54,284 bases of DNA, taken from positions 1 to 54,284 of the IMG/VR virus record IMGVR_UViG_3300027963_000004; one strand, written 5' to 3'. Below are positions 3,982 through 47,821 of this stretch, in pieces (position 1 is the stretch's first letter; each line of letters opens with the position of its first letter). The notes below the pieces were generated by a model. That model worked only from the letters and a program-made list of their open reading frames with translations, was not told where the DNA came from and searched no databases. This DNA is from a virus. The translations under genes were made by a program, and so were the position numbers.

Positions 3982-4400
3982 ACAAATGCCCTCACCTCAA
4001 GTGGATTTCCAGTAACTTTAGCGATAACTTCGTGGTCATTCATAATCATAAATTCCACTTGTTCATCTTCCTTGTGCCGAACAGTCCAGCGGTCGCCAGT
4101 CCATTTAGGTACACGGAGGAAATCACCAACGTCACACCAACTGCCCTCAACCCATGGCTCCATTGAGTCGCGTTTCTTGAACGCCAATGGGCCTATAGCC
4201 ACTACCTTACCAATTGGGTTTTGCGCCCTTTCGGTATCTCGTGTTTCTTCAGGCAGAATAATCCCGGATTCAGTCATTTTTTTCTTGGCTAATCGCATTT
4301 GTACAAGCACACGAGCGCCTAATGGAATCGCACCGGGGTCTACAAGCGGAAAAGCCTCCGCTATCTCAGCGGCATTACCCGCTACCGTGCTATCTTTCAT
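3978..4400 (-). CDS. GroES-like co-chaperonin
   Basis: A 140-aa protein with recognisable GroES (Cpn10) features. After a 25-residue N-terminal extension comes PLGARVLVQ (first beta strand, compare PLHDRVIVK), then a mobile-loop region with SGIILPEET, whose IIL tripeptide corresponds to the IVL contact with GroEL. This is followed by GKVVAIGP (compare GEVLAVGNG), a roof-like insertion and a C-terminal EVIAKV strand. It probably caps host GroEL to fold the capsid protein, as T4 gp31 does. ATG 4400 has a GGAAG site. It overlaps the next gene (scaffold) by 4 bp, placing it squarely in the head operon. Confidence 0.8.
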   Translation of the reverse strand: MKDSTVAGNAAEIAEAFPLVDPGAIPLGARVLVQMRLAKKKMTESGIILPEETRDTERAQNPIGKVVAIGPLAFKKRDSMEPWVEGSWCDVGDFLRVPKWTGDRWTVRHKEDEQVEFMIMNDHEVIAKVTGNPLEVRAFV

Positions 4401-4757: not shown

Positions 4758-7261
4758 TCTCCTAAGTTACTTTGGGTGGTTTGGTTCAATTTAATTGCAG
4801 TTTCTTCCTGCTCCTTACGCAGTCTGACACCATCTACAGTCAGTTCCGCAGTTTTCATACGCTCAGTTGTGAGGTTATCTTCAGCATTCATGGCTATACG
4901 AGCCTGTAAATCCTTGTCCTCACGAGCAGCCTTGGCTTGCATCTCAGCCTGTTTAAGTTGGTTAGATGCTTGGTCTTGAGCCGCTCTGCGTTGAGTCTCA
5001 GCCATAGATGCCTGTAGAACTGCCTGTGCCTCACCATCCATTGGAGGTGCGGGTGGTTTGAACTGTTGCATAAACTGACCGAGTTGTTGCAGAGCAGGCA
5101 TGACCCCAGAAAATACCTCTTGGGAATCCATCTTTACATGGTCTGAGGCTATAGCAATTGCCCTATCAATCTCTTTGACCAACTTGTTGTTATCATAATT
5201 GTCAATCCTAACCCCTGTGTCACCACCAGCATAAGTCTGCATTTGGTTGGTATACCAGAGCATCATGTGTTGTTTAATATGCTCTAAAGCCTGTGGAATG
5301 TATTTAGGGGCAACTAAATTGTTCATGCCTAGGTTAGGGTCTAGGGCAAATGATAAGTGAGCCTGTATGTGTGCCAAGTGGTCTTGGCGAGGATATGCAA
5401 AGGCTGGTCTGCCCAAAGCCATGGCTGAATTCTCTTGAGCAGCATTCATCTCCGCGGGTTTAGAGGCATTTGGTATCAACTCATTAGAGTTAGGTATCTT
5501 TAACTGTTTAAGCATCCGAGCCACTACCGCCCTTTGGTCAAAAATAGCGGGGAATTGTGTAGATAACTGCAATACCGCTTGCATCTGGGCCACTCTTTGC
5601 GTTTCCGAAAAGATATGGGGGTCAGAAACAGGGATGATGTCACTATTGCGTTTGAAGTCTTCCCGCTTGATTGGTAGTTCAGCCACCACATCACCACGCT
5701 TTTGCTCATCCAAATACCATCGATTCAGACGACCAATTATCCCAAGCACACGGCGTTGGGACTCATGCAAGCGTGCATGGATAGATGAGAATACTGCCGC
5801 TCCTTGCTCTATTAGAGCCTGAGTTGTGCCTACTGGGGTGTTCTGACCTACATCAGCAATCTTTTCTTCTGCTGTGGTTACTACCCCTTTGGCGGCATTA
5901 GTTAACCATCCCAAGAGTTCAAACAGAACTTGACTTGGGGGGTTAAATGGCATTGGCATAGCAATCTTACGGATGTCATCTACACCCGGCGCGCTCTCAA
6001 CTTCAGTAACCTGCGTGACCTCAATTTGTTGACTTGCACCTGAAATTCGCGCGCCTTTAAGTTTGAGCATCGTCGCTGAATTGTTAATGTGTGCCGTATC
6101 GAGCAAGGCACGAAGAGCGCCCGTAAGCGCAGCAGAAAGACCTCCAATGAGTTGCGGAAGACCGATAGCATATGCACCCCTCCATGGGATAAATTTGAAT
6201 TCAATGAGCCAATCTAACTTTGTTAAGGTAATGTCACCCTCTTCCCAGTTACGATATAACCCCAAGACTTTTTGCTCTAACTCATCAATCATTAAGATGT
6301 AAGGAGCGGATTCACCATCTGTACGGGTGTCATCATCTAGGTTTAACCATGTGTAGATGTGGTAGACCTTACGCATTCCATCTTCATTGTCCTGATATTT
6401 CTTGCCCTCAATCTTCTCATTGGCTTTCTCAGAATGAGTCTGCTCTGGCTCAGAGTGGGCGCGGACAAAATTAGTATCTCGGTATAAACCCCTTTGAACG
6501 CGTTGATCCAACTCCCAAGCAGAGATGGTTTGCACCTCAGTAACCCTTTGAGCAGTATAAAAATTTACCGCTGAATAGGGGAGCAAGATGTTGTCAATGG
6601 GGACGAACTCAGAGCAAGGTCTGCGCTTTGTTTCGTCATACCAGATTTTCATAAACTGAGAGCCACCCAACGGCAACTGGGTCAACAATTGCTCTTGCTC
6701 ATCCCTAAACTCTTCAATCTGCTCAGTCAACTGCCAGTTTATGTAGTCGCGTTTACGCTCTGCGACCTCAGTCTTCTCATCAGTTACTTCGCCAATAATC
6801 TTTGTGCGGGTTGGGCCATCTGGTGGGAATAGTTCCCTAATGGCTCTTGAGGCAAAGTCTACACAAGCCTCTGCCATTACAGGGTGAACTACTTTGGATG
6901 CACCAAAGAACATAGCCCCTCCGGGCGCGTCATCACCCATGCCAGTGCGTTTTAAGCCCTCTTCTTGTTGCTTGTCCCGCTTTTCACGGGACTCTTTGTC
7001 ATTCTCAATGAGGTCAATGTAGCGGTTGGCAATCTTCTCAATGTCATAGAGGTTTAGAGTCTCAGCCAAGTTGGCATAGAAATCTTCATCTTCATTGGGG
7101 CCTTTAAAGCCCTCCATTTGGACTACGGCAGAACCATCAGGCAATTCTTCTACTTCTGAATCCTCTAAGTCAATATCAATGTCAATCCCCTCTTCTGGGA
7201 TTTCTTTGATTCCATCAAGGAATCGGTTGAATTCTGGGTCTATCGGCATTTCAGTAGCCAT
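4754..7261 (-). CDS. Portal protein
   Basis: An 835-aa protein whose size, acidic N-terminus, long helical middle and Gln/Ala/Glu-rich helical C-terminus (about 730-835) match large portal proteins of short-tailed phages such as P22. The portal is the dodecameric ring at the head vertex through which DNA enters and leaves. Sequence marks include the SGASQQIEV and PSQVLFELLGWL regions in the core and the C-terminal coiled, barrel-like tail. An AAGGA site precedes ATG 7261. The gene lies between the packaging genes and the head assembly genes, as expected. Confidence 0.85.
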   Translation of the reverse strand: MATEMPIDPEFNRFLDGIKEIPEEGIDIDIDLEDSEVEELPDGSAVVQMEGFKGPNEDEDFYANLAETLNLYDIEKIANRYIDLIENDKESREKRDKQQEEGLKRTGMGDDAPGGAMFFGASKVVHPVMAEACVDFASRAIRELFPPDGPTRTKIIGEVTDEKTEVAERKRDYINWQLTEQIEEFRDEQEQLLTQLPLGGSQFMKIWYDETKRRPCSEFVPIDNILLPYSAVNFYTAQRVTEVQTISAWELDQRVQRGLYRDTNFVRAHSEPEQTHSEKANEKIEGKKYQDNEDGMRKVYHIYTWLNLDDDTRTDGESAPYILMIDELEQKVLGLYRNWEEGDITLTKLDWLIEFKFIPWRGAYAIGLPQLIGGLSAALTGALRALLDTAHINNSATMLKLKGARISGASQQIEVTQVTEVESAPGVDDIRKIAMPMPFNPPSQVLFELLGWLTNAAKGVVTTAEEKIADVGQNTPVGTTQALIEQGAAVFSSIHARLHESQRRVLGIIGRLNRWYLDEQKRGDVVAELPIKREDFKRNSDIIPVSDPHIFSETQRVAQMQAVLQLSTQFPAIFDQRAVVARMLKQLKIPNSNELIPNASKPAEMNAAQENSAMALGRPAFAYPRQDHLAHIQAHLSFALDPNLGMNNLVAPKYIPQALEHIKQHMMLWYTNQMQTYAGGDTGVRIDNYDNNKLVKEIDRAIAIASDHVKMDSQEVFSGVMPALQQLGQFMQQFKPPAPPMDGEAQAVLQASMAETQRRAAQDQASNQLKQAEMQAKAAREDKDLQARIAMNAEDNLTTERMKTAELTVDGVRLRKEQEETAIKLNQTTQSNLGE

Positions 7262-7263
7262 AT

Positions 7264-10200
7264 CTATTTCCTTTTAATCCAAGTGTCTGGTGTCATGTGG
7301 TGCTTTGTAACAAATTCATCATGCAATTTTTTTGATGCAGTTTTATGTTTTTTTGATATCTCAGTCATAAGTTTGTCAATAGACTTGTAGTCGGTTTTTA
7401 GCAATTTAGGTAATTTAGACTCTAGGCTTTGCACCGCACCACCTATGGCTTTATTGATGTCTGGGTCATTGATGTCATATGTTCCACGATTGCCTATGGC
7501 TGACTTAACTTGTGATGGGTCATATAACCCAATGTTTTTTATACCTTCTTCATTAACATAAAAACTATCATGCCCTAATTTTTTTATGGCATCTTGAACA
7601 ACTGGATTCTCAATTAATCCCCAATTACCTGTTTGATTTCCAAATCTTGCCATTTTTAAATAATAATCAAATTCGTTTTTTATTTTTTCAGCCTCATCAG
7701 GGTCTGATTTAGAAATTTGTTGTATTACTTTTTCAATTTGATTGATGTCATCATAATCAAATGGATTAGTTGCATTAATATGTAATGGATATAAAGTCTG
7801 ATTCTTCTCAGCCGCAATTGTGGGACTCTTACTTCCAACAGGAAAACTTTCAGCAAAGTCCAAATTTGGCGAAACAAAGATTGGGTCGCCTTCTTTTTGA
7901 AAATGTGGTGTTGCACCACGGTACATTTTTTCTTTAACTTTACTTTTCTCTAAAAACTTTTGAAGGTTAGCCTCACGTTCTGCTTGGGGCAATACCTTTT
8001 GCAGCCCTTTCATGCTTTTAGCAGCACCCTTGAGCAATCCTCCCACGCCCATCTTTAGGCTAAATTTAGGGGCAGATATTGCCCCACCTTTTTTCTCCTC
8101 AAGGGGAGGGAAGATTGAGCCACTATAAGCACCCGGCTCAGTAGTGCCTTGCATTGCACCACGGATCATGTTGGCTTGCTTTTGCAAATCACCGGGAAAT
8201 TCCAACTCAGCCAACTCTCTGATGGTCATCAAGTCATTGCGGCCAAGGGTGTTCTTAGACTCAGGGTCTGGCTTGAGTCGGTACTTGGAATACTCATTGA
8301 GCAATTCTTCATTGACTTGTTTGTGATAAGCATCAATATCTGCTTGAGTCACATAGCGGGTGTCAGGATTGGTTCTGCTATAACGCTTGGCATCCGCATA
8401 GTTGGGGAATGCTTGATCAAGAGTCTTCAAGCCTGTATTTCTCAAGTCACCAATCTCATCCCACTCACTAGACCTTACAAAGTCTTGCACATAGGGCAAA
8501 TACTCAGGATTTGGGGAGCGGTTTTGTTTACCCTTAATTTGATGGATGGTAGGTTTTGAGCGCTCTGCAGGTATATATGGTATGCCAGCATCATCCAAAA
8601 TTTTACTGATTGATTTAACATAAGCAGCAGGACTATCAGATAGTTCATTGAAAGAACTTACCATCTGACCTACAGTATCATGCAAAGATTCTTCATCAGA
8701 TTTATTAGTCAATGGCATATCACTATCAAATAATTTTTTGTTTTTTTGATACCATGCTGGCGCATCATAGCCAGAGCCAACCTCAATAGTAGTATGTGGC
8801 TTACCCTCAGGGTCTACTAAAGAATAAACCTTGGCATCACCCCTTTTAATAGCCTCATAACCACCTAAACCATAATCAGGGCTACCAGCATTACCTGACT
8901 CAAATGACCATTCAGGATGTCCTTTTGGCGGCTCATATCCTCGAACAGAATGACCCATGGCATCTGACTCAGCCGTAAACTGACCGGGCTTATCTAACTG
9001 AACCCATTTATAACCCTCCGGGTATTCTTTAAAAACAGTTAATCCTTCAGCCCTTTTTGCTTTAGCCTCTTCTGCTTTTTTAGCAAGTTCTTGGTTGTAT
9101 TGATGGGTGCGCTCAACCGCTTGTTTCATTGACACTTTGTTAAGTTGGTCTGGACGGATGCGGCCAGTCGCCAAGTCTTCTTTCAAAACATCAAGAATAT
9201 GGTCAAAGCCAAGAGAAGAGCCATAATCTTCATAAGAACCATGAGGAGGAATGCCATAAATTGGAGTGTCACCCGGTGCATTAGCCATCCAAGGATTGTC
9301 TTTTAGTCTCTTCTCAGTCTTGTAATCTTTGAGCAACTTTGAATTTCCACCAATTAAATCATCAGTTGCAGTTTCCCAAAATGTACCCATTCTAGTTGTA
9401 GACATTTGGTTTTCTGGCATTCCAAACTTTGCGCGGGCTTTCCTTGCATCTGCCGCTTGTTGATAACTCCAATTGAGGGCATCACGCATTGCACCCTCAC
9501 CAGCAAACTGGGAAATGCCTTGGTCAGCCAAGAGTCGGACAGGGTCTTTTTCAGTCCCCATTTGTTTCTTGACATAGTTGGTTAGGTTAGAGTCAACCCA
9601 TGTATCGATGGCATAGGTGTTCTCTGCTTGCTTACGCAAATTGGCATAAGCCTGCTCAGTCTCAGGATTCCATTGACCCGCCTCTTTCATGCGCTCAATT
9701 ACAGTATCCATCTTGTTGATAGTGTCTTCATAAACTTTTTTGGGATTACCACGAACGCTTGCCATATGGCGAGGGGAGTTGCTATCTTTTAAGTTCTGCC
9801 CAAAATTAGTAATAGATTTATCTTTCCAATTACCACCCTCTGGCTTGATGATGTTCATCACAGGAGGGTTAGTCAGAGACTTAGGAATGCCGGGTACAAG
9901 GGGTTGACCCATGGCAATCTTCTGCCCTGCGGTCTCACCGAGTTCTTTGCCCACAGTCTTTATTCCCTTGGCTACAGTTGACCCAGCCTTGGGCGCGACT
10001 ATCTGGGAGACGCCATACATACCCAACTTAGAGGCTACATCCTCAGAGTGTTGAGCCTCCTTGCCCGCTCCCAAATCCTTGAGGGATGGTATCTTCTTTA
10101 GCACGCGCTCAGAAGTTGGCAGAGCCGCCTCTTCTTCTACTAAGTTAGGCTTACCTGCAAGTTCACCTGCATAATTAATGCCCATGCGACCCAATTCCTC

Positions 10201-12288
10201 AATGTCACCGGGTGCGCCAGCAATTCCCGCGGCAGTTCCTCTTGCTGCACCATAGAGCATGGGGCCAAGACCTTGAGTAAACGGCTCATAGAATGGGCGG
10301 TCTTTACTTGTCTTTGTGCCACCACCACGACCGAACTTAGGCAAACGAAACCGAGTCGGTTGCGAGTCGGTTGCACCACCTTCTGCAAATGAGCGTTGCC
10401 ATTGAGCGCCAAACATAGGCTTGCCCTCTTTGGGCTTCATCATGTTCACATTTAAGCGACCACCACCCAAGGGCGCATTGTACCCAAGGGAATTACCAGT
10501 CACCTTATGCTGACCATCCATGTGTGTGCCATGCATCCCAGCGCTAAGTCTGCCCTCACCAACAGGGACAGAGCCAACCAAGTTGGTCTGATACAGATTG
10601 GCGGGAATGAACTTGTCCAAAGGCTTGACCACACCCGCATTGATGCCCACATCCCCAATGTTGTTGGAGTAGTTAGCCATCAGAGCCTCCATTTGGCGGC
10701 GCTCTCGGTCTTTCTCGATGGCAGTAAGGTTGACACCCGCACTCAGTCTGCCCGCATCTTTGAGGTCAGCATTAGCCATCAGCCCAGCATTGGAGATGTC
10801 TGCTCCATTCATGTGCTGCTTGTTGACAAAGGGGTTGAACTTGATTGGGGAGTCATCCACATCGCCGCCATCAGCAAAGTGCTTGCCCTTGAATGCGAAT
10901 GAGGGCATGGATGGGGTTGTCGGATTGGGATTCTTCTTAGTCTTGTAGTCCCTACCCTTAAAGGTCTGTGAGGCTACATCAGTAGGCTGACCCTTAATCA
11001 TGCCAGCCATCAAAGCCATTAACTTGCGGATGGATTCCTTATCATCCTCATTCTTAATCCCTCTGAGTCTTTTCTCAAAGTTGGACATATGTATCTCACC
11101 GCCAGACTTTTGCCCGGTGTATTTCTTAATCAACTCGCGGTACTTGGCAACTTCATCAAGCCACTGGTCATCCACCAACTGATGGGGGAAGACCTTTTGG
11201 ATAGTCCCAGTAAAGTCTTGGGGGCGCTGAGTTGAGGCAATGTGCTGTGCTGCATCAGGATAGGATAGGGTGAATGGGGTCAAGACCTCTTGGTGACCTA
11301 AAGCCTTGCCACGAATCCCTTTCTCATAGGTATTGTGACCCGCGGTGTCGGTCAACTTTGCACCCGGAACCATCTCCCCGGCTGATAAGCCAGTCAGATT
11401 GACCTCCATGTTGCGCAACTGTGGCTCAGTAATAGCCCATTGGATGTCCAAGCCATTAGGCAATCCCAAGGGTTGAGTCACCTTAGGTATCTTCATTCGG
11501 TTGTTGAACCACTTCCTCATTTCAGGGTCAGCCCTCATTGCCTCCATGGCTGCATCTCGATCAGCAATGCCGGGCCAATTAGAAAAAGAAATCTGCTCCG
11601 TTACCCCTGTCTTTGGGTTTGTCTTTGGATAACCTTGAGCAATCAAAGCATCAAAGGTCTGCATATCTTTAGGCTTAATCTTGGTGAAGTCCATCGCCCT
11701 TAGGTTGGCATCAGCAAAGTGCATGGCAAAGTTATTGGAGATTGGCCCCATAGCCATGTGCTGCCCAACCACTCGCTCTGGCTCATAGAACTCAGCCACA
11801 TCCGTAAACTTGTTCTGAGCCTGTTGTGCCGGCCCCTCATTGGATGCCCAGAAGAGAGGGTTCTTGCCACGCGTCTTGCCCAAGCCATATCTTGCCCCAC
11901 CCTCTTGGATGGATTCAATCCCCTCAATATCCCCAACTCGCTTCAAGACTGAGTCAGAGATGGTCTGGTCACCCGGGATAGCCACATTGACATCACCCTT
12001 GCGGGCTTGGTACACATTGGACTGCCTTGCTTTACCTGTCGGCACAACCTCATAGTCCAATCCCTTGACGCGCTCATTCTCAAGACGCGAGCGCCCAGCC
12101 AAGTTCTTGGTATCCCCTGCCTTGCCAGACTCCACGTGTTCACCTAGCATCTGCTTAGACACGCGAGTAGCCAAAGCATCTATCTCTGCCTTGGTCTTAG
12201 GGGTAGCACGAGCCAAACGCATGGGCAAAGCCCGGTCCGCTTCATTTGCTGCCTTGGCCGTCTTAGCCAGAATATTAAGTGCGCCCAT
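7264..12288 (-). CDS. Giant polyvalent-type virion protein with PcfJ-like and ART-like domains
   Basis: A 1674-aa protein between TerL and portal. Visible parts: an N-terminal helical region; low-complexity stretches with FADGGD (about residue 470) and FAEGGA (about 640); an Ala/Gly hydrophobic segment at about 660-710; a PcfJ-like region at about 1085-1175 (GYKWVQLD, then MGHSVRGY, then KVYSLVDPEGKPHTTIEV); and a C-terminal ADP-ribosyltransferase-like region at about 1455-1600 (MYRGATPHF, FVSPNLDFAESF, NATNPFDY and GLYDPSQVKSA), which matches ART domains of phage polyvalent proteins. Such proteins are thought to be injected with the DNA to act on host targets. The order of motifs is seen; virion packaging and enzyme activity are inferred. 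Confidence 0.7.
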   Translation of the reverse strand: MGALNILAKTAKAANEADRALPMRLARATPKTKAEIDALATRVSKQMLGEHVESGKAGDTKNLAGRSRLENERVKGLDYEVVPTGKARQSNVYQARKGDVNVAIPGDQTISDSVLKRVGDIEGIESIQEGGARYGLGKTRGKNPLFWASNEGPAQQAQNKFTDVAEFYEPERVVGQHMAMGPISNNFAMHFADANLRAMDFTKIKPKDMQTFDALIAQGYPKTNPKTGVTEQISFSNWPGIADRDAAMEAMRADPEMRKWFNNRMKIPKVTQPLGLPNGLDIQWAITEPQLRNMEVNLTGLSAGEMVPGAKLTDTAGHNTYEKGIRGKALGHQEVLTPFTLSYPDAAQHIASTQRPQDFTGTIQKVFPHQLVDDQWLDEVAKYRELIKKYTGQKSGGEIHMSNFEKRLRGIKNEDDKESIRKLMALMAGMIKGQPTDVASQTFKGRDYKTKKNPNPTTPSMPSFAFKGKHFADGGDVDDSPIKFNPFVNKQHMNGADISNAGLMANADLKDAGRLSAGVNLTAIEKDRERRQMEALMANYSNNIGDVGINAGVVKPLDKFIPANLYQTNLVGSVPVGEGRLSAGMHGTHMDGQHKVTGNSLGYNAPLGGGRLNVNMMKPKEGKPMFGAQWQRSFAEGGATDSQPTRFRLPKFGRGGGTKTSKDRPFYEPFTQGLGPMLYGAARGTAAGIAGAPGDIEELGRMGINYAGELAGKPNLVEEEAALPTSERVLKKIPSLKDLGAGKEAQHSEDVASKLGMYGVSQIVAPKAGSTVAKGIKTVGKELGETAGQKIAMGQPLVPGIPKSLTNPPVMNIIKPEGGNWKDKSITNFGQNLKDSNSPRHMASVRGNPKKVYEDTINKMDTVIERMKEAGQWNPETEQAYANLRKQAENTYAIDTWVDSNLTNYVKKQMGTEKDPVRLLADQGISQFAGEGAMRDALNWSYQQAADARKARAKFGMPENQMSTTRMGTFWETATDDLIGGNSKLLKDYKTEKRLKDNPWMANAPGDTPIYGIPPHGSYEDYGSSLGFDHILDVLKEDLATGRIRPDQLNKVSMKQAVERTHQYNQELAKKAEEAKAKRAEGLTVFKEYPEGYKWVQLDKPGQFTAESDAMGHSVRGYEPPKGHPEWSFESGNAGSPDYGLGGYEAIKRGDAKVYSLVDPEGKPHTTIEVGSGYDAPAWYQKNKKLFDSDMPLTNKSDEESLHDTVGQMVSSFNELSDSPAAYVKSISKILDDAGIPYIPAERSKPTIHQIKGKQNRSPNPEYLPYVQDFVRSSEWDEIGDLRNTGLKTLDQAFPNYADAKRYSRTNPDTRYVTQADIDAYHKQVNEELLNEYSKYRLKPDPESKNTLGRNDLMTIRELAELEFPGDLQKQANMIRGAMQGTTEPGAYSGSIFPPLEEKKGGAISAPKFSLKMGVGGLLKGAAKSMKGLQKVLPQAEREANLQKFLEKSKVKEKMYRGATPHFQKEGDPIFVSPNLDFAESFPVGSKSPTIAAEKNQTLYPLHINATNPFDYDDINQIEKVIQQISKSDPDEAEKIKNEFDYYLKMARFGNQTGNWGLIENPVVQDAIKKLGHDSFYVNEEGIKNIGLYDPSQVKSAIGNRGTYDINDPDINKAIGGAVQSLESKLPKLLKTDYKSIDKLMTEISKKHKTASKKLHDEFVTKHHMTPDTWIKRK
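10351..10361. repeat. CCGANTCGGTT element, copy 2
   Basis: CCGAGTCGGTT, followed immediately by a near copy, GCGAGTCGGTT (10362-10372). Both lie within the giant virion protein gene, where the minus strand reads Gln-Pro-Thr-Arg. Confidence 0.7.
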
Positions 12289-31945: not shown

Positions 31946-34866
31946 TATTTTGCTCCTTTAAGGTATGAGGTTAGAGTCTTTGTTTTAGGTGGAATCTTAT
32001 TAATTGGTGCAGAGCGTTTGTGGGCGCGAATGCTCTCACGGAACTTATCCAAAGCCTGTGCGCCAGCCTTAGTTGAACCATTACCAATCTGAGCAACAGT
32101 CTCAGCATCAATGACATATTCACCATCAGCAAGCATTGCTGGAATGTCATCCGATTGTCCATCACCCGGACCATGTACTGGTGCGCCATCACGGAAGTTT
32201 AAACGACCATTTGTAACTGGAACATTTGACCATGCAGGCAGTCCACCACTACGCATACCCGGCGGTTTCATTCCCATAGGAGACATACCTTGTGGAGGCA
32301 TACCTTGCGGCCCCATGTTCTGCGGAGCCATACCCTGTGGTGCCATTCCTTGTGGCTGCATACCTTGAGGGGCCATACCCTGCGGAGACATCCCTTGAGG
32401 TGGCATTCCTTGTGGAGCCATGCCCGGCGCGCTTAATCCACCCATAGCGGGTTGTTGAGGCTGTTGCATTGGTTGTGGGTTGTACAAGTTTTGCATTGGG
32501 TCAACAGGCTTACCATAAGTAAAGTAAGTATTATCTGAATTGCCTAAGCCGCCTTGAGGTTGACCGCCATCAGCCATACCCTCTACCTCTTCTGTTTCTG
32601 TCACATCTTCAATAGGAGTATCTATATCTGTGGTCTCATAACCATAGTCACCCTCATTCACAGGGTTAAAACCCGGAGCATTGAGGTTTTTACCCAACTC
32701 AGTACCATAAAGGTCTGGCATCTCCTCAGGAGTTCCATAGTCTTCATAATTAACAAACTTAGCGGGGCCTACACCAAAATCAGTTGTACGCGGATTGATA
32801 TTACCTACTTTAGACATATCAAGGGCTTGTTGGTTTTGACCGCCACCGCCACCTAAAATGTCAGAGTTGCCAAGCAAAGAGCCAAGTATTGCACCCGCAG
32901 CACCAGCACCTAAATAGCCAGAGCCTCCAATTAAGTCTTGGATTTCTTGCCAAGTGCTTTTTTGTTCAGCAGTTTTCTTTTGCTCATCAATAAGGTCTTT
33001 GGGAGTTTGCGGCTTGGTAGTAGGGTTCATTCTTGTGCCGCCCGTACCACCCACATTGGTAATTGGCTTAACATCAACACGACCACCACCCAATGGAATT
33101 ACGCTTCCGCTTGGGTCGTAGACAGTCATGTTTCCATAACCATCGGTCACAATGTAATTACCCTCATCGTCCCTTGTGGTTTGATAACCATCAGTTGTAC
33201 TAGACACATTCCCATCAGAGTCAAATGTCATGGTGCTGCCATCATCAAATGTCTGAATGTAGGAGCCATCATCAAAATATTGAACCCCCGGAGTTGGCGT
33301 GAAATTTGGGGGGCCATCACTCTCTTCAGAAATTCCACTATTTTTTTGAGGTAAATTATTTAAAAATTCTTGTAAATCATCTTGATTTGCTGACTCAAGA
33401 TAGCCACTGTTTTGATAATTTTCAGCAGTATCTACTGGGCCATAGACAACATCACCATCAGCAAAGTGTGGGACTCCACCATTTCTCATCATTGTTATTA
33501 AGCCTCCACGCTTGACCTCATAGTCATCTCCACCATCGTAAGTAAAGCCAGTATTGTCTGCTAATAAATAATCATTTTCATTAGGAAATTCTTCGGCTAT
33601 GATAGTGTCATCATTATATGTTGGCCCGATTCTTGAATTTATATCGTTATCATCATTCGGTAGGGAAGGCCCAGTATCAGCCAAATTCCAAGTACCATCA
33701 TCAGCCAAATTCCAAACTTCATTAGTATCAGGGTCTGTATAAGTGTTGTCAGCAAAATGAGTTGTATCCTCTTCTTCATAAAGAGAATAACCATCATCAC
33801 CTTTAGTTGCAAATAGATTGCCATCGGCTGTATAAATATTGCCATTTGAATCTTCAAAATAGCCATCACCAATATCATTCATGCCATCTGTACTAGCAAC
33901 AGTTGTATCGCCAATACTACGAGTATTCCCCGTTGGTGTAGTTGTTTCAACATCTTCATCAACCTCTGCGGCGCGATAAAGTACAGATGTACCATCAGGC
34001 ATAGTCTTATAAGTGTTGCCCAAAGAATCGGTGGTGTATTCGTCTTCAGAAACATCGGCGGCACGATAAAGTGATGAAGTTCCATCAGGCATAGTTTTGT
34101 AGACGTTACCTAAAGAGTCAGTTGTGAACTCTTCTTTGTCATCACCAAAACCAGTTCCTGTTGGCAATTTAGTTGTTGGGTTTATTGTGCTTGTAGTTGG
34201 CTTTGTTGTACTAGTGGTTGGTTTAGTTGCAGTTCCACCAGTCACAGGCTTTGTAGCAGTTCCACCCAGTGTAGGCTTTGTAGCAGTTCCACCCGATGTA
34301 GGCTTGACAACGCTTGTAACTTTATTTCCACCTGTTAATTTATCAATAACTGCTTTAGTTCCAGCACCAATAACTGCACCAGTAGCACCACCAGTTAGAA
34401 CTTTAGATAAAGTGCTACTACCTGAGGGTGTTGTTTTAGTCACAGTAGGCAACTTACTTGTACCAGTTCCAGTTCCCGTAACAGAAGTAGTTTTAGTTGC
34501 TGGAGTTGATACCGCAGGCTTAGTAAATGATGTCAAAGGTTTAGATGTAGAAGTGCCAGCCTTAGTCTTACCTGTCATTACAGAACTTGGCTTTGCAGTT
34601 GTAGTCGTTGCTTTTTTTGTCAAAGATGCAGGTGTTGTCTTGCTACCTAAGGTAGATATAGCCGTACTAGTTGTGGGCGTTTTGGTAGTTGAAATTGGTT
34701 TAGAACCACTTCTAACATTAGTAATTTTTGAAGTGCCAACCAAAGAAGATGCAGGTCTAGCCCCAGTGCCTAAGCGAGGACTATCTACTGTCCCTCGAGT
34801 AACACTAGTTATTCCACGAGCCTGAGGCAATGATTTATTTGATGTACGTTTAGATAGAATTGCCAT
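31945..34866 (-). CDS. Large low-complexity virion protein with PQGM repeats
   Basis: 973 aa. Residues 1-230 are Thr/Ser/Lys-rich. A 40-residue unit around TTDSLGNVYKTMPDGTS is duplicated near residues 250-310. About residues 815-870 hold a run of more than ten PQGM-type units resembling a collagen-like or polyproline rod. The C-terminal 80 residues (HGPGDGQSDDIPAMLADGEYVIDAE) match a domain seen at the ends of many phage tail and virion proteins. HFADGDV and MADGGQ motifs recur. A structural, possibly ejected, role is inferred. Confidence 0.6.
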   Translation of the reverse strand: MAILSKRTSNKSLPQARGITSVTRGTVDSPRLGTGARPASSLVGTSKITNVRSGSKPISTTKTPTTSTAISTLGSKTTPASLTKKATTTTAKPSSVMTGKTKAGTSTSKPLTSFTKPAVSTPATKTTSVTGTGTGTSKLPTVTKTTPSGSSTLSKVLTGGATGAVIGAGTKAVIDKLTGGNKVTSVVKPTSGGTATKPTLGGTATKPVTGGTATKPTTSTTKPTTSTINPTTKLPTGTGFGDDKEEFTTDSLGNVYKTMPDGTSSLYRAADVSEDEYTTDSLGNTYKTMPDGTSVLYRAAEVDEDVETTTPTGNTRSIGDTTVASTDGMNDIGDGYFEDSNGNIYTADGNLFATKGDDGYSLYEEEDTTHFADNTYTDPDTNEVWNLADDGTWNLADTGPSLPNDDNDINSRIGPTYNDDTIIAEEFPNENDYLLADNTGFTYDGGDDYEVKRGGLITMMRNGGVPHFADGDVVYGPVDTAENYQNSGYLESANQDDLQEFLNNLPQKNSGISEESDGPPNFTPTPGVQYFDDGSYIQTFDDGSTMTFDSDGNVSSTTDGYQTTRDDEGNYIVTDGYGNMTVYDPSGSVIPLGGGRVDVKPITNVGGTGGTRMNPTTKPQTPKDLIDEQKKTAEQKSTWQEIQDLIGGSGYLGAGAAGAILGSLLGNSDILGGGGGQNQQALDMSKVGNINPRTTDFGVGPAKFVNYEDYGTPEEMPDLYGTELGKNLNAPGFNPVNEGDYGYETTDIDTPIEDVTETEEVEGMADGGQPQGGLGNSDNTYFTYGKPVDPMQNLYNPQPMQQPQQPAMGGLSAPGMAPQGMPPQGMSPQGMAPQGMQPQGMAPQGMAPQNMGPQGMPPQGMSPMGMKPPGMRSGGLPAWSNVPVTNGRLNFRDGAPVHGPGDGQSDDIPAMLADGEYVIDAETVAQIGNGSTKAGAQALDKFRESIRAHKRSAPINKIPPKTKTLTSYLKGAK

Positions 34867-34869
34867 GGC

Positions 34870-36648
34870 TTAACCTTTTCCCAATAGTGCTGTAAGCCCA
34901 GAGATATTTGTCAATGGGGTTAATTTTGTAACATCCATTTTTTTAGGAGGGACATATGCAGGCGGTTTTGCAAATTGAGATTTTTGCATTGCCGCCATTT
35001 GTTGGGCAGTCATCGTCTTAGGCTTAACCGCGGTCAAACCACTTGTAGGTTTAGGTGCAGCAGTTGGAGTTTTAGCCGCTGTAGTTGGGCGAACCACATT
35101 CTTTGTAAGACCTTTAGTAAGATTTTGACGTATTAAATTTGTTCCTGTTGCAGTCAAAGCCCCTGTAGCCCCTTTACCAAAATTAGATAAGAAATCATTT
35201 GGTTTCTCTTCTATTAAACTTGCTGGTTTAGTTCCTGTTGGGCTAACTGCTGGAGTGCTTTCTCCAGAAATGTCTACAGGCTTATCTTCTTCAACTAAAG
35301 CCTTAACTTGAGCCAAGCCACTTGTATCAGCCGCAGAATTAACATCAATATTTGCACTTGTATCCACAGGAGCAAGCCCTGATACGACTGGTGTTGTGAC
35401 TAGAGTTTCAATTGGCGCAGTAGGCGTAGTAATGTCTTGAGAGACAGTAGCCAATCCACCCGTAGGAGTTGTATCAGTTGTCTCTGTTGTTACCCTAGTA
35501 GGGCTAACAGTATCAATCGTATCTGTTGTATCTGTTGTATCAACTGTATTTGTTCCAGTTGTAGTTGTTGCATCAACTGGCTTAGAAGTATCAACTGTGG
35601 CAATTAAATCAGATACATCAGGCGATAATTTAGCATCAGGAGTCTCTGTCCCAGAAACTGCCTCATCTCCACCTGCGCTCTTAACAAAGTCAGTAATCTG
35701 ACCAGTCAGCATATTGCCGACATTGCTTGCGCCTACATTGAGAAGGTCATTGAAAATCTTATCCCCATCCTTACCCTGAACAAGGTCACGGGTAACTGTA
35801 GAGGCAGCACTTCCAAGCAACTTAGAACCTGTTTCATCACCTACTTCATTACCAACAAAAGAACCTAAAGTACCCGCGGCAAGCCCCTCAACATTCAAAT
35901 CTCCTGTACGAGCAACTTGACCAATTGCTTGACTTGCTACTTGACCAGCCAATTTAGAGCCAGTCTCTGCCGCAATCTCAGACCCAAGGAATCCAGTTCC
36001 AGCAGATATTAATGTGCTTTGAAGAGCGGCATTAAAATCTCCTCCATTAGTAGCCGTATTGACTGCCAACTGCCCAGCCATTTTTTGTAGCATTGGGTCA
36101 GCCTCAGGGAGCAAAGTCTCCCCAATGGTACTCATAATGTTACTTGCACCCTCTGAAAGAGTGCTAAACATATTGCTCATACCCTCAACAGTTGTGCTTG
36201 CTGCTTCAGCAAATGAACTAACACTTGCCGCGCCCTCAGATGCGGCAGTTACCGCCTCAGCAACACTTGCCCCTTCACTTACAAGGCTTGCTGCCTCTGT
36301 AGCCTCAAGAACTGCACTAACACCCAATTCTTCAACAACTGCACTAGCAGCAAAGGTCTCTGCACTTGCAACAGCGGTAACCGCCTCAGTTGCCTCAAGA
36401 ACAGCAACTCCAGCCTCAACCGCCTCTGCGGCTCCGGCTACCTCTAAAATAGTTGCGGCAAAACCAGCCTCTGCGGCAAAAGCCGCCAAAGCATATGGGG
36501 CGGCAATAGCGGCAACAATAAGGATTGGATTTTCAGCAATAGTCTCAACAACTGTCTCAGCAACATCAACAACTGTCTCAACAACATCACCAACAAATTC
36601 AACTGCACCCTCAACTACATCTGATATGGCTTCAATAACGGCACTCAT
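34870..36648 (-). CDS. Ala/Thr-rich virion protein with hydrophobic N-terminal half
   Basis: 592 aa. The first 180 residues are long amphipathic and hydrophobic helices (VVETVVDVAETVVETIAENP, ILIVAAIAAPYALAAFAAEA). The middle has Gly/Thr segments and the C-terminus is a Pro/Lys-rich tail. This looks like a membrane-inserting ejection protein that could help form a DNA channel. It starts in an ATGA overlap with the upstream 149-aa gene. Confidence 0.6.
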   Translation of the reverse strand: MSAVIEAISDVVEGAVEFVGDVVETVVDVAETVVETIAENPILIVAAIAAPYALAAFAAEAGFAATILEVAGAAEAVEAGVAVLEATEAVTAVASAETFAASAVVEELGVSAVLEATEAASLVSEGASVAEAVTAASEGAASVSSFAEAASTTVEGMSNMFSTLSEGASNIMSTIGETLLPEADPMLQKMAGQLAVNTATNGGDFNAALQSTLISAGTGFLGSEIAAETGSKLAGQVASQAIGQVARTGDLNVEGLAAGTLGSFVGNEVGDETGSKLLGSAASTVTRDLVQGKDGDKIFNDLLNVGASNVGNMLTGQITDFVKSAGGDEAVSGTETPDAKLSPDVSDLIATVDTSKPVDATTTTGTNTVDTTDTTDTIDTVSPTRVTTETTDTTPTGGLATVSQDITTPTAPIETLVTTPVVSGLAPVDTSANIDVNSAADTSGLAQVKALVEEDKPVDISGESTPAVSPTGTKPASLIEEKPNDFLSNFGKGATGALTATGTNLIRQNLTKGLTKNVVRPTTAAKTPTAAPKPTSGLTAVKPKTMTAQQMAAMQKSQFAKPPAYVPPKKMDVTKLTPLTNISGLTALLGKG

Positions 36649-37094
36649 TTTTGCCCTCCTCTGGCTTTGCCAAGGACTAGCGTGACTTGAAAGCCACCAT
36701 CTTTAGTTTTCTGGGTAGCAAAACCCATATTCGCAGGTTGATCACGGCCAATGGCATTAAATATATTTAAAATGGTTGGGTCGGAAAATTGTGTTACGAC
36801 CACATCAAATCCAACTTTGTAGGCAGAATCTGCAAAAATTCGGCTATTCTCTAAAAAGTTACGAGCAGTATCAGCATTTAAAGCGCGAAAGAATCCATAT
36901 CCCGGCTCTTTGGTCTTATGCACTACAAAAATAGTATTACCATGGCGCATCTTCCAAATATTAGGCAAACTGAATTCAACAGTCAGCATCTCTTTGACCT
37001 CTTTGACAGGACGACCAACCTTGGTATTCTCAGCAGCAATCTCAATGATTTGCTCACTTGTCAATTCTTGTTGTTTGCTGTCAACCATCTGCAT
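36645..37094 (-). CDS. Hypothetical protein next to the ketosynthase, possibly GNAT-like
   Basis: 149 aa. The C-terminal half (GYGFFRALNADTARNFLENS, then FADSAYKVGFDVVVTQFSDP, then GGFQVTLVLGK) has the strand-helix rhythm of GNAT acyltransferases, although no acyl-CoA loop is certain. T7 gp13 is a GNAT-like protein at a comparable place in its virion operon. One base separates it from the ketosynthase. If it is a GNAT, it could use an acyl group carried by the neighbouring ACP; this is inference. Confidence 0.5.
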   Translation of the reverse strand: MQMVDSKQQELTSEQIIEIAAENTKVGRPVKEVKEMLTVEFSLPNIWKMRHGNTIFVVHKTKEPGYGFFRALNADTARNFLENSRIFADSAYKVGFDVVVTQFSDPTILNIFNAIGRDQPANMGFATQKTKDGGFQVTLVLGKARGGQK

Positions 37095-37095
37095 A

Positions 37096-38205
37096 TCAAA
37101 GCCCTTTAAAAATTGCGCTGGAATAGATATTACCCATACCCGCGGCTAGACTTAGCACCAACCCATCTGGGGGGCTTGTCGGTTGCGAAAGATAAACCGA
37201 GTCGGTTTCGGTTCGGTTCTCAATTGCAGGGACAATTCCATTTCTGATGTCTTCTAGCAATAATAATGTTTCTAGCAATCCACTGCTACCCATTGTGTGA
37301 CCTATTTTCTGCTTGTAAGAGGTCGCAACAAATGCTTTTAACGTGTTACTTAAAGCATTTTTTTCAGACACATTGTTGGAATGCGTTCCAGTTCCATGTG
37401 TTTTTACAATTTTAATATTTTCTGGCTTAGTTTGGGTAATTTCTAATGCACCCTCTATAGCCTTTATAAAACCCTCACCATTTTCACATTGACCTATAGC
37501 ATTAGTTGAATTCTCGGATGCGCTATATGCCCCAATTAACTCAGCATAAGGTTTAATTCCTTGCATCTCTACTGCTTTTGCAGACTCAAATACCGCCAAA
37601 GCCGCGCCCTGACCAATTCTGAATCCAAAGTTAGTTGAGTCAAATGCGGAGGGTTTAATTCCCTCTTCCTCTTGTTTATTGGTCAAAACCGCTTTAGCCT
37701 CACCAAAAAATTCCAAAACTGAATTGGTAATTCCATCTTCTACAGTCAAAACAATTACTCTTTCAAAACCATAGAATTTCATTAGAGTCTGCACATCCAT
37801 CATTACTTTTAGGCTTGAGGCACAAGCAGAGGCATCAGTTACCACTTGGTCTATATCCCCAAAGGACTGAGCAGTACGCCCGGCAAAGACTTGGGTTAGG
37901 CTGAAAGGAAGAAACTTATAAATATAGTTAAGACGGTTGTCTGGATAAGAACGGGGGCCAATACCTGCAAAGTGAGCATTCCCACCCGCTAAAATAAAGG
38001 CAGTCTTACCCACAGGATTGTTTCTTAAATACTCAACAAGGACTGGGTCTAATACCTTGTCAGCCAATCGATGGGGTACATAAAATAACCCGCTCTTAGT
38101 TCTGTTGTAAGATTCAGGAAACCAATGAACTTTTTGGGGGTAAACTACATCATCAAATAACTCAATACTTGTTGTTGAGAGAGTACGATATTGCGTTAAA
38201 AACAT
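37096..38205 (-). CDS. Beta-ketoacyl-ACP synthase (KAS/FabF-like)
   Basis: 369 aa from ATG 38205 (TAATG overlap with the ACP stop). Thiolase-fold condensing enzyme: nucleophile Cys128 in TDASACASS, His270 in KTHGTGT with Glu281 in the following SEKNAL, Lys298 and His303 in KQKIGHTMGSSG. Spacing Cys-His 142, His-His 33 and Lys five before His agree with FabF (Cys163, His303, Lys335, His340). FRIGQGAALAVFE is the conserved core strand, and SLAAGMGN replaces the usual FGFGG end. It should condense malonyl-ACP with an acyl group. It is shorter than FabF at the N-terminus. Encoded within the late virion operon, directly after an ACP. Confidence 0.88.
   Translation of the reverse strand: MFLTQYRTLSTTSIELFDDVVYPQKVHWFPESYNRTKSGLFYVPHRLADKVLDPVLVEYLRNNPVGKTAFILAGGNAHFAGIGPRSYPDNRLNYIYKFLPFSLTQVFAGRTAQSFGDIDQVVTDASACASSLKVMMDVQTLMKFYGFERVIVLTVEDGITNSVLEFFGEAKAVLTNKQEEEGIKPSAFDSTNFGFRIGQGAALAVFESAKAVEMQGIKPYAELIGAYSASENSTNAIGQCENGEGFIKAIEGALEITQTKPENIKIVKTHGTGTHSNNVSEKNALSNTLKAFVATSYKQKIGHTMGSSGLLETLLLLEDIRNGIVPAIENRTETDSVYLSQPTSPPDGLVLSLAAGMGNIYSSAIFKGL
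37197..37207. repeat. CCGANTCGGTT element, copy 7
   Basis: CCGAGTCGGTT preceded by AA, inside the ketosynthase gene, followed by TTCGGTTCGGTT. Read on the minus strand as Thr-Glu-Thr-Asp-Ser-Val codons. Confidence 0.65.
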
Positions 38206-38489
38206 TACTTGCAAGCCTCCAAAGCCTTTTCTACTGACTCTGGCTCTTGAGTTTTTCGGCTCATCAGCAAGTCATATAGTTCTTTAACTGTCTTTGGTGC
38301 CCATGTTTTAGTCTCATCATCATCAGGGATGCCATAGAGTTCACACAAGTACATCAGCATCACCAAGCCATCCAAACTGTCTAATCCAATATCCGCAAAA
38401 GCATCTTCCATACTCGTTGCAAACACAGGGTTTGAATGAGCGGGGCGGGCTAATTTGGCTATGGCATTAAACAGTTCAATAAAATTCAT
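38205..38489 (-). CDS. Acyl carrier protein
   Basis: 94 aa, acidic, four-helix pattern. Ser38 in DIGLDSLDGLVMLMYL is the 4'-phosphopantetheine attachment site; LYGIPDDD and PKTVKELYDLL match the later ACP helices. It carries acyl intermediates on the host-supplied phosphopantetheine arm, as no phosphopantetheinyl transferase gene is visible. It starts in an ATGA overlap with the 85-aa gene and its stop overlaps the ketosynthase ATG, so carrier and synthase are made together. Confidence 0.85.
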   Translation of the reverse strand: MNFIELFNAIAKLARPAHSNPVFATSMEDAFADIGLDSLDGLVMLMYLCELYGIPDDDETKTWAPKTVKELYDLLMSRKTQEPESVEKALEACK

Positions 38490-38743
38490 ACTTGGAGTTC
38501 CGTTGGTTGGTTAACGGCGCCAACAAGTGCTTGCGCCCAATCTTCCCAATTATTAAATACATAGGGGCCTGGGATACCCTCATTTGTAAAAATATCAATT
38601 GCTTTAAGACCAGATGCCCATTCTTTCCAATCCGTATGCTCATTAGGTATTGCTAACTGTTGACCTGCATATGCCTCACACATCAATGATGCCCATGACT
38701 GAAAAGTCTGAAAACGGGGGTCATATACAAGTGCAAGCGCCAT
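38486..38743 (-). CDS. Small virion-module protein
   Basis: 85 aa from ATG 38743 (MALALVYDPRFQTFQSWASL), with GGAAG seven bases upstream; a longer frame to 38824 overlaps the gp10-like gene. Acidic and Trp-rich (WASLMCEAY, WKEWASGLKAID, NNWEDWAQALV). Similar small proteins, in my recollection, follow tail hub genes in aquatic podoviruses. It is coupled to the ACP gene. Confidence 0.6.
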   Translation of the reverse strand: MALALVYDPRFQTFQSWASLMCEAYAGQQLAIPNEHTDWKEWASGLKAIDIFTNEGIPGPYVFNNWEDWAQALVGAVNQPTELQV

Positions 38744-44932: not shown

Positions 44933-47821
44933 TTAAGGATGAGTTGCTTTGTATGCGTCAAATTCTGCTTTGAGTTCTTGGATTGCGGCTGTAAGTGTTG
45001 CTATTAAAAATGATGCGTCCACGCCTTGATACTTAGGTTTGCCATCCGCATCAACTGCATCTTTTTCCCCTGATACTGCTTGTGGGCATATTTCGGCTAG
45101 TTCGTGAGCAATAAAACCCTGACCATCCGAGCCATCAACTTTCCATTTATAAGTGACAGGTTTAAGTTGTGCAACTTTATCCAATGCACCTGTCATTGGC
45201 TGCACATTTTCTTTTAAACGATAATCTGAAGAAGTTGAATAGGAAGTCGATGACCCACTTGTTTGAATAGAACCTGCTACGCCGTTGCCATTACCAAAAA
45301 TAATTTGTGATGCCGAAGCAGTTGAACTAACCTGATTATACAAATACCCATTGTTTCCACCGGAAGTTATATATGCAAGTCCATAAACACTTGCACTAGG
45401 AGTAGTAACGCATGAGAAGTAATAATTTTCTGAACTATCAATGTATAATCTAACATTCCCATCACCATCAGATAAGACAACATTGTTACTTGCTGTACGG
45501 ATGTCTAGACCACCAGCGTTACCTCTAAAGTTACCAAGAATAACATTACTACTACCTGTTGTTACATCATACCCAGAGCCGGGAATTGCTAAAGCAACAC
45601 CAGAGCCTAAAAAAATATTTCCTTTTCCAGTAGTTAAAGAAAACCCTGCTGTATAGCCAATACATACATTTGAGCCGCCTGTGCTAGTATACCCAGCCGC
45701 ATTACCAACAAATACGTTAGTTTCACCAGTAATATTTGAATATCCTGCTGTGTAGCCAACACAAACATTTTGAGCGCCTGTTGTTTGGCTATATCCCGCC
45801 TGATAACCTACTGCTGTGTTGTTAGAGGCTGTGGTGTTATTAAAAAGTGCGTAATTACCAAGTGCGGCATTGTAAGAGCCAGTTGTATTTGAATGGAGTG
45901 CATGACTACCCATTGCAGCATTGTTGACTCCTGTAGTGTTGTAGTATGTAGCATTTGCGCCTACTGCGGTATTTTCGTAACCAGTAGTTGTTGACTGAAG
46001 GGCTTGAAAACCAATAGCAGTTTGATACTGCCCTGTAGCACTATATAGGGCTTTATACCCAACAGCAGTTTGTGCTGTACTTGTTGTGTTTGAGTAAGCG
46101 GCTTGCCAACCTACTGCTGTGTTATTAGAGGCGGTAGTGTTATTAATTAAGGCATTGTTACCAATTGCCACATTATTTGAGCCTGTTGTGTTTGTAGTCA
46201 TTGCACCTGCACCAACAACAGTATTTGATGAGCCTGTTGTGTTGGCATATAAAGGAGAAGTTACTATTCCATCCCAATAAGTACCAATAGCCGTATTTCC
46301 TGCTCCAGTTGTGTTAGCGTATAAAGCACGACCACCAAAAGCAGCATTTCCTACGGCAGTTGTGTTTGCCTGTAAAGATTGATAACCTACTGCGGTGTTG
46401 TAAGAGGCGGTTGAATTAGCCAAGGCTTGTTGACCAACTGCTACATTTGAACTTGCAGAAACATTAGTATACAAAGCCGCATTACCAATAGCCGTGTTTC
46501 CACCACCAGTAGTATTTGAATATAGTGCCGCTTGACCAAAAGCGTTGTTGACTGTCCCAGTAGTATTACTATACCCTGCTTGATACCCTACGGCTGTGTT
46601 ATTTGAGGCTGTGGTGTTTGAGTAAAGTGCCTCATTACCCAAGGCAGTATTTGATGCGCCTGTGGAGTTTGCTCTTAATGCATCATATCCAATACCAACA
46701 TTGTAATTTGCCGTTGAATTTGATGATAACGCTCCTCCACCAATACCAATATTATTTCCACCAGTAGTATTAGTATATAAAGGCGCATAACCAGATGAAT
46801 TACCAGCGCCTAAAGCAATATTATATGAACCTGTTGTATTTCCTCTTAAAGCAGCCTCACCAACAGCAGTATTTCTTGTTCCTGTCGTATTACTATAACC
46901 TGCTTGATAGCCTACGGCTGTATTATTAGAGGCTGTAGTGTTGGTTACAAGCGCTTCTTTTCCTACCGCTGTATTATTTGCGCCTGTTGAGTTATATCTT
47001 AATGCTTGACTACCTACGGCAGAATTAGAACCTCCAGTAGAAGTAGTGTATAAAGCAAAAGCACCAAGTGCTGTATTTTCATTAACAGTAGTATTACTAT
47101 AACCTGCTTGATAACCTACGGCTGTGTTGTATGAGGCGGTGGTGTTTAATGCTAATGCCGCAGTTCCTATAGCAGTATTGTAACTACCTGAACTGTTACT
47201 AAATAAAGCACCATATGTTCCAGCATCTTGTGAACCAACAGCAGTATTGTAAGAACCTGATGTAGTTAAATACATAGCGTAATTACCAAGAGCCAAGTTG
47301 TTATTTCCACTTGTAATACTTGCCAATCCACTAGCGCCTACTACGGTGTTATTACTAGCCGCAGCATTTCCACGCCCAACTCTTATTCCATAAACAGTTA
47401 AGTCAGTACCAGAGTATAAAAGGTTGGCTGAGTCTGTTAGTAGACCTGCGGTGGTTGCGTAAGGTACTCGACCACTTGTTAGGCTAGAAAATGTAATTGA
47501 GCCTGATGACGTAATCCCTGTTAAGCCTGTCAGAATACCTGCATCGCTCAAGATACCAACTGAGTTCTGTATTAACTTGCCTGTCGTTAAATCAAACCGT
47601 GCTAGTGCGTTGTCTGTAGCACTTGCAGGGCCAACCACATCGCCTGATGCGCCCGAAGTTGAGGCCAATAATGTAACAGTTCCAGCGCTATTCTTATAGT
47701 ACAACTTGCCATCTAAGGTATTGATTGCCAATTCGCCTGCAACAAGGTTGCCAGAAGTTGGTACAGCCGACGCAGTAGTGCTGTAGTAGAGAGATAAGGG
47801 CGTATAGCCTGCTTGTGACAT
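44933..47821 (-). CDS. Tail fibre/spike with YadA-like repeats and S74 chaperone domain
   Basis: 962 aa. Residues about 150-790 contain more than twenty imperfect repeats of the type NTAVGYQAGYSNTTG or NTALGNEALYSNTTA, like the YadA-head left-handed beta roll that forms trimers. The last 100 residues hold an intramolecular chaperone (Peptidase_S74): SSDYRLKENVQPM with the Ser-Asp cleavage site, LKPVTYKWK and GQGFIAHELAEICP. The chaperone cuts itself off after trimer assembly. This is a probable receptor-binding fibre. Confidence 0.88.
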   Translation of the reverse strand: MSQAGYTPLSLYYSTTASAVPTSGNLVAGELAINTLDGKLYYKNSAGTVTLLASTSGASGDVVGPASATDNALARFDLTTGKLIQNSVGILSDAGILTGLTGITSSGSITFSSLTSGRVPYATTAGLLTDSANLLYSGTDLTVYGIRVGRGNAAASNNTVVGASGLASITSGNNNLALGNYAMYLTTSGSYNTAVGSQDAGTYGALFSNSSGSYNTAIGTAALALNTTASYNTAVGYQAGYSNTTVNENTALGAFALYTTSTGGSNSAVGSQALRYNSTGANNTAVGKEALVTNTTASNNTAVGYQAGYSNTTGTRNTAVGEAALRGNTTGSYNIALGAGNSSGYAPLYTNTTGGNNIGIGGGALSSNSTANYNVGIGYDALRANSTGASNTALGNEALYSNTTASNNTAVGYQAGYSNTTGTVNNAFGQAALYSNTTGGGNTAIGNAALYTNVSASSNVAVGQQALANSTASYNTAVGYQSLQANTTAVGNAAFGGRALYANTTGAGNTAIGTYWDGIVTSPLYANTTGSSNTVVGAGAMTTNTTGSNNVAIGNNALINNTTASNNTAVGWQAAYSNTTSTAQTAVGYKALYSATGQYQTAIGFQALQSTTTGYENTAVGANATYYNTTGVNNAAMGSHALHSNTTGSYNAALGNYALFNNTTASNNTAVGYQAGYSQTTGAQNVCVGYTAGYSNITGETNVFVGNAAGYTSTGGSNVCIGYTAGFSLTTGKGNIFLGSGVALAIPGSGYDVTTGSSNVILGNFRGNAGGLDIRTASNNVVLSDGDGNVRLYIDSSENYYFSCVTTPSASVYGLAYITSGGNNGYLYNQVSSTASASQIIFGNGNGVAGSIQTSGSSTSYSTSSDYRLKENVQPMTGALDKVAQLKPVTYKWKVDGSDGQGFIAHELAEICPQAVSGEKDAVDADGKPKYQGVDASFLIATLTAAIQELKAEFDAYKATHP

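Follow-up and report, generated by a model that had tools for sequence, protein, structure and literature searches.

A mobile ketosynthase and acyl carrier protein gene pair in a family of mostly uncultured phages, a candidate cassette for viral acyl condensation

Background

What a phage might do with a ketosynthase and an acyl carrier protein of its own, and whether the virion genes around such a pair say anything about its function, are the questions raised by a viral record 54,284 bases long (the window, by which we mean this whole stretch of DNA). Two open reading frames are present on its minus strand, inside the operon for virion proteins, and an initial annotation had read them as a beta-ketoacyl-ACP synthase (KS) and an acyl carrier protein (ACP) that form a catalytic pair.

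Fatty-acid-type genes of phages have usually been reported singly and explained by analogy. A fabF gene has been described in a Fonsibacter pelagimyophage (PMC7029224), an ACP gene in the Alteromonas phage R22Y (PMC11705849), acpP-fabF-fabG genes in roseobacter prophages (PMC8224337) and a further auxiliary metabolic gene of the fabF/acpP type elsewhere (PMC5704599). Two co-isolated Prochlorococcus MED4 cyanophages code for an ACP together with a holo-ACP synthase, and the passage on this carrier and its activating enzyme mentions no ketosynthase (PMC3037559). The published fabF and acpP cases are thus single genes or, in roseobacter prophages, a fabG-acpP-fabF order resembling the bacterial operon; none is a two-gene unit of constant composition shared by hundreds of related phages. 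As the initial annotation had supposed, we found no description of a fixed KS-ACP phage cassette in the open-access literature searched; what appears to be new is the fixed pair, phage ACP (in the cyanophages together with its synthase) and phage fabF having been published as separate genes.

A carbon-carbon bond-forming enzyme kept together with its carrier under strong selection, in hundreds of phages and at two unrelated genome positions, offers a concrete and testable case for phage-directed acyl-chain synthesis in phages without FabD- or FabG-type genes, and the KS and the ACP, both small, lend themselves to expression and assay.

Results and Discussion

Identity of the ketosynthase

Both ketosynthase domains of Pfam were recognised in the KS above their cut-off of 20.8 bits (PF02801, 58.8 bits; PF00109, 29.1 bits), with E-values of 6.6e-16 and 9.8e-7. 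Its AlphaFold2 model (pLDDT 90.3, pTM 0.92) has the thiolase-type fold of the ketosynthase superfamily, as predicted from the sequence at the outset; the best matches in the PDB were FabF/KAS II structures (E 2.5e-21, TM ~0.8), all top matches were KAS enzymes, and a profile of 23 KS relatives retrieved FabF structures at E 1e-27. When the KS was aligned with E. coli FabF by hhalign (residues 96-368 against 132-412, E 9.9e-18), the four residues first proposed as its catalytic set were recovered at FabF-like spacing, giving it the Cys-His-His triad and the Lys of the elongating KAS I/II enzymes. PHROGs family phrog_35856, which has no functional assignment and matches KS residues 1-312 (E 7.8e-39), is identified here as a ketosynthase.

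The best-scoring family for the KS is FabF/KAS II (PF00109 plus PF02801, TIGR03150), with which it has in common the fold and the Cys-His-Lys-His positions. The phage enzyme nevertheless differs from FabF in being phage-encoded and always accompanied by its own ACP, in lacking about 35 residues before the active Cys, and in scoring 110.9 bits against TIGR03150, the NCBIfam equivalog model of FabF, far below the cut-off of 493.75. Moreover, GFGG-TN and DAYHMTSPPENG, which we take to be the gating loops of FabF, are replaced in the KS by the family-invariant AAGMGN and by a stretch in which N235 and Q239 are invariant, respectively. Since the gating loops are replaced and the enzyme is shorter, its substrate or product may differ from those of FabF, and the low equivalog score together with the absence of the FabF gate sequence suggests that it may not perform ordinary fatty acid elongation.

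The acyl carrier protein and the gene junctions

The ACP is more difficult to recognise, scoring 15.1 bits against PF00550 (E 0.028), below the cut-off of 20.8; ten of 16 ACP relatives matched the same model at E<=0.1, the best at 0.003. The profile of the ACP family found solved ACPs (best E 3.8e-5) and was aligned by hhalign with E. coli AcpP at E 5.6e-7 with the Ser in register, in agreement with the earlier placement of Ser38 in GLDSLD. Across 16 diverse members, D37, S38 and D40, that is, the attachment motif, are the sole invariant columns, and the ACPs are acidic, with net charges of -6 to -11. Its profile and motif identify the 94-aa product as a divergent acyl carrier protein.

The tight packing of these genes was correctly described at the outset. 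The start codon of the ACP gene and the stop codon of the small ORF before it (UP) overlap by 4 bases (ATGA), the KS start and the ACP stop share one base (TAATG), and the KS and the next gene (DN) are one base apart. UP probably starts at 38743 and not at 38824, since the N-terminal part of the longer version overlaps the previous gene. No significant match of UP to solved structures was obtained.

Table 1. Features of the cassette and its surroundings; positions are those of the window, except for the last row, which refers to the relative L322.
Feature	Position	Strand	Remarks
Beta-ketoacyl-ACP synthase (KS), 369 aa	37096..38205	-	ATG 38205 to stop 37096; catalytic Cys128/His270/Lys298/His303
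Acyl carrier protein (ACP), 94 aa	38205..38489	-	Predicted phosphopantetheine Ser38 in GLDSLD
Small flanking protein (UP)	38486..38743	-	Left border of the cassette slot, outside the cassette
149-aa flanking protein (DN)	36645..37094	-	GNAT fold in the model; borders the slot on the right, outside the cassette
Upstream virion protein, phage stabilization-protein-like	38745..41000	-	phrog_3287, E 7e-27
AcpS of L322	3412-3777	+	Early-block relative

Distribution, conservation and selection

Scanning IMG/VR with the KS of the window gave 379 contigs, and additional scans gave further sets of relatives, hundreds altogether. The loci fetched contained 232 distinct KS sequences, 202 of which were full-length and used for residue counts, and the phages carrying the pair are related and mostly uncultured. 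This survey, a check proposed with the initial annotation, gave a very uniform picture. Wherever the contig reaches far enough upstream, in 224 cases, an ACP gene directly precedes the KS; the remaining eight of the 232 lie at contig edges. The DSxD motif of the ACP is kept in 223 of 224, the exception reading DSLG, and the four catalytic residues of the KS (Cys, His, Lys, His) are kept in 201, 202, 202 and 202 of the 202 full-length sequences. In one relative (L327, KS at 5720-6826) an Arg takes the place of the catalytic Cys while the ACP and an AcpS gene remain, possibly as a result of a sequencing error or of loss of function. Median dN/dS values were similar for the KS (0.064), the ACP (0.073) and a neighbouring gene (0.066). 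The fixed adjacency, the retention of the residues and the low dN/dS indicate that the pair is maintained, almost certainly functional and probably catalytic, a well-supported conclusion that agrees with the initial claim and in which fold, linkage, purifying selection and the AcpS genes of some relatives (see below) point the same way.

Identity between full-length KS members, estimated from 3,000 sampled pairs, averaged 64% and was at least 47%, and the best matches in phage collections outside the family did not exceed 30%; by this measure the KS-ACP family is a lineage of its own. The FabF of a Balneolaceae metagenome-assembled genome (MAG) is 27% identical to the KS of the window. Most of the KS matches labelled as Listeria or Enterococcus phages were ~24-30% identical and lay on unannotated records, and these are probably host FabF genes in contaminated records. 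No close cellular relative of the KS was found in bacterial-genome contigs, one phage-like contig excepted, and no plasmid copies were found at E 1e-20. Among the matches from bacterial genomes, one alone encodes a relative, contig JAGYJQ010000016.1 of a Balneolaceae MAG; its flanks are phage structural genes, which suggests a binned phage or a prophage and provides a possible lead to a host. For the large terminase subunit (TerL) and the stabilization protein, the nearest isolates are Caulobacter phages, at 42%.

Among 50,697 phage records, MW202545.1 (Caudoviricetes sp. ctpbd312, from Manatee Spring) was the sole match covering at least 80% of the KS. It carries the same cassette in the same slot, with the KS 60% and the ACP 48% identical to those of the window, annotated by the depositors as a 3-oxoacyl-ACP synthase with a truncated start and as a hypothetical protein, respectively.

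A cassette with two genomic locations

The slot occupied by the pair in the window is bordered by UP and DN. Using DN as the query, and therefore independently of the KS, 80 loci were surveyed, 58 with a KS and 22 without a KS in the slot; an additional scan for phages with an empty slot yielded 10. In the sister phages L231 and L236, UP lies directly before DN with nothing in between, and the flanks in L231 are ~65-80% identical in DNA to those of KS-bearing phages. In two other phages a gene of the DUF4214 type occupies the slot (L237, 4261-5553; L242, 4063-5001), which makes it look like a site for cargo genes.

DN itself is conserved between the stabilization protein and the ejection-type genes, whether the pair is there or not, and the stabilization-protein-like gene has relatives in MW202545 and in Caulobacter phages. 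The DN model (AlphaFold2, pLDDT 85) retrieved GNATs with Foldseek (E 5.5e-4, probability 1.00), the usual RxxGxG/A loop of GNATs was not seen by inspection, and the protein could be structural. We considered DN as a component of the system and rejected it, as it is found in phages without the pair.

Two phages with an empty slot have the pair elsewhere in the genome. One of them (59 kb) carries it at 33612-35017 on the minus strand, with the virion operon on the plus strand, flanked by a gene for an SNF2-type helicase on one side and by a series of small early genes on the other, one of which encodes a DUF3310 protein, in a block where primase/helicase-like and polymerase-like genes were noted by inspection. 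Over the whole set of 232 distinct KS sequences, 184 are located in the late slot, 46 in an early or replication block, and two are cut by contig ends; the KS tree requires at least two changes of location. The KS and ACP genes are thus a two-gene cassette that relocates intact between the late and the early part of the genome and, as the slot-empty sisters and the two locations indicate, it is variably present and not needed for virion assembly, in the manner of an auxiliary metabolic gene.

These observations bear on the virion link suggested by the window, which holds there and for the relatives in the late slot but fails as a general rule. Adjacency to virion genes alone is no evidence of a virion function, and the early-block copies and the slot-empty sisters make a general function tied to the neighbouring virion genes unlikely; in particular, they count against the view that the pair generally serves to acylate a virion protein encoded nearby, virion protein acylation being one of the uses first proposed for it. 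A metabolic or host-directed role is more likely.

Other fatty-acid-type genes in the phages

Each of the 32 long records contained exactly one KS (PF02801) gene, with no partner of the chain-length-factor kind found in the minimal system of type II PKS. The initial observation that reductase, dehydratase and acyltransferase genes are missing could be extended to these 32 records for FabG-type reductases (PF13561) and FabD-type acyltransferases (PF00698), neither of which was found in them; for FabZ-type genes it is borne out by a scan of the window against Pfam, which revealed no FabI-type gene either. The window contains no AcpS gene. An AcpS-type phosphopantetheinyl transferase was, in turn, detected above cut-off in four early-block phages (L322, L323, L327 and L317), in two forms ~40% identical to each other, in the same orientation and ~4-5 kb upstream of the pair. 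Its presence in four relatives is independent support for a phosphopantetheinylated carrier and indirectly supports the prediction that Ser38 carries 4'-phosphopantetheine.

Proposed role and alternative explanations

As far as can be judged from sequence, an infecting phage probably uses the pair to make or extend its own acyl chain. The explanation that we favour, and to which we give an even chance, is that of an auxiliary acyl-condensation cassette in which a dedicated carrier and an elongating-type condensing enzyme would borrow the loading and reducing enzymes of the host and alter its acyl supply. The ACP would be converted to holo-ACP at Ser38 by the host AcpS or, in a few relatives, by that of the phage, and would receive malonyl, perhaps also a starter acyl group, from the host FabD or another loader. 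The KS would then take an acyl group on Cys128 and condense it with malonyl-ACP under loss of CO2, using His270, His303 and Lys298, and the beta-keto product on the phage ACP would be reduced by the host FabG, FabZ and FabI or released. The outcome would be a changed acyl supply of the infected cell, most likely of membrane fatty acids. In this scheme, the activity, the substrate, the use of host enzymes, the product and the benefit to the phage are what we infer.

If the aim were merely to raise fatty acid synthesis in the host, the phage would not need a dedicated ACP; its presence suggests that a separate product is made. It is conceivable, though we put it forward tentatively, that the mobile KS-ACP pair, aided in some phages by a phage-encoded activating enzyme, is a dedicated viral synthase which during infection makes one particular acyl or keto-acyl compound, separately from the fatty acid synthesis of the host. 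Ranked below the remodelling of acyl supply, and in our opinion rather unlikely, is a minimal viral type II ketosynthase system, in which one or a few condensations on the dedicated ACP would give a small acyl or keto-acyl product, not a membrane fatty acid, that acts on the host or on competitors, with host fatty acid synthesis enzymes borrowed for reduction. The inseparability of ACP and KS and the divergent, family-invariant gate loops are in its favour, and a precedent exists in cispentacin synthesis, where AmcF-AmcG, with a short KS, carries out a single C2 condensation on the dedicated ACP AmcB and FabI is borrowed (PMC10698177). With its 369 residues, the phage KS aligns to the AmcF model with almost no offset (107-359 against 108-360), and one phage ACP matches AmcB weakly (E 0.005). 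However, the AmcF score of 91 bits is far below the cut-off of 325, and AmcF acts as one half of a heterodimer with AmcG and needs the loading enzyme AmcH (PMC10698177), neither of which was recognised in the phages; the 32 long records have no second KS-like gene, and beside the pair we recognised no gene for a loading ligase, a thioesterase or a tailoring enzyme.

Acylation of a virion or ejection protein during assembly, with the GNAT-fold neighbour as a possible transferase, would explain the position of the pair beside that protein in the late virion operon of the window and of most relatives, but as a main explanation it is weakened by the 46 pairs in the early or replication block, and DN, which occurs in phages without a KS in the slot and shows no usual GNAT loop, could be structural; we regard this explanation as improbable. 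We assign a similarly low probability to a throttling of host fatty acid synthesis, whereby the phage ACP would compete for malonyl, the KS would decarboxylate malonyl-ACP, and the resulting drain of malonyl-CoA would stop the growth of the host membrane. The Cys/His/His/Lys set of known KS enzymes also supports decarboxylation of malonyl-ACP, with which the conserved residues of the phage KS are compatible, and KS and ACP would suffice for the purpose, in keeping with the absence of FabD- and FabG-type genes; pure decarboxylation, though, would tolerate the loss of the catalytic Cys, kept in all but one of the full-length sequences. Finally, the cassette-like presence and absence of the pair might suggest a passive moron, made of captured host FabF and ACP genes with no selected function. 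This is very unlikely, being contradicted by dN/dS values of 0.06-0.07 and by the persistence of a fixed pairing and invariant catalytic residues over 232 distinct sequences with identities down to 47%. The remodelling of acyl supply remains the preferred explanation in our ranking.

Other genes in the window

Three further genes on the minus strand deserve mention. A GroES/Cpn10-like protein (3978-4400; E 1.2e-9) is encoded near the head genes. Beside the large terminase gene, a 1674-aa protein (7264-12288) shows a weak C-terminal match, below cut-off, to an ADP-ribosyltransferase polyvalent protein (E 3.4e-5). A tail protein (44933-47821) contains many NTAVGYQAGYSNTTG-like repeats and ends in a C-terminal S74 chaperone domain.
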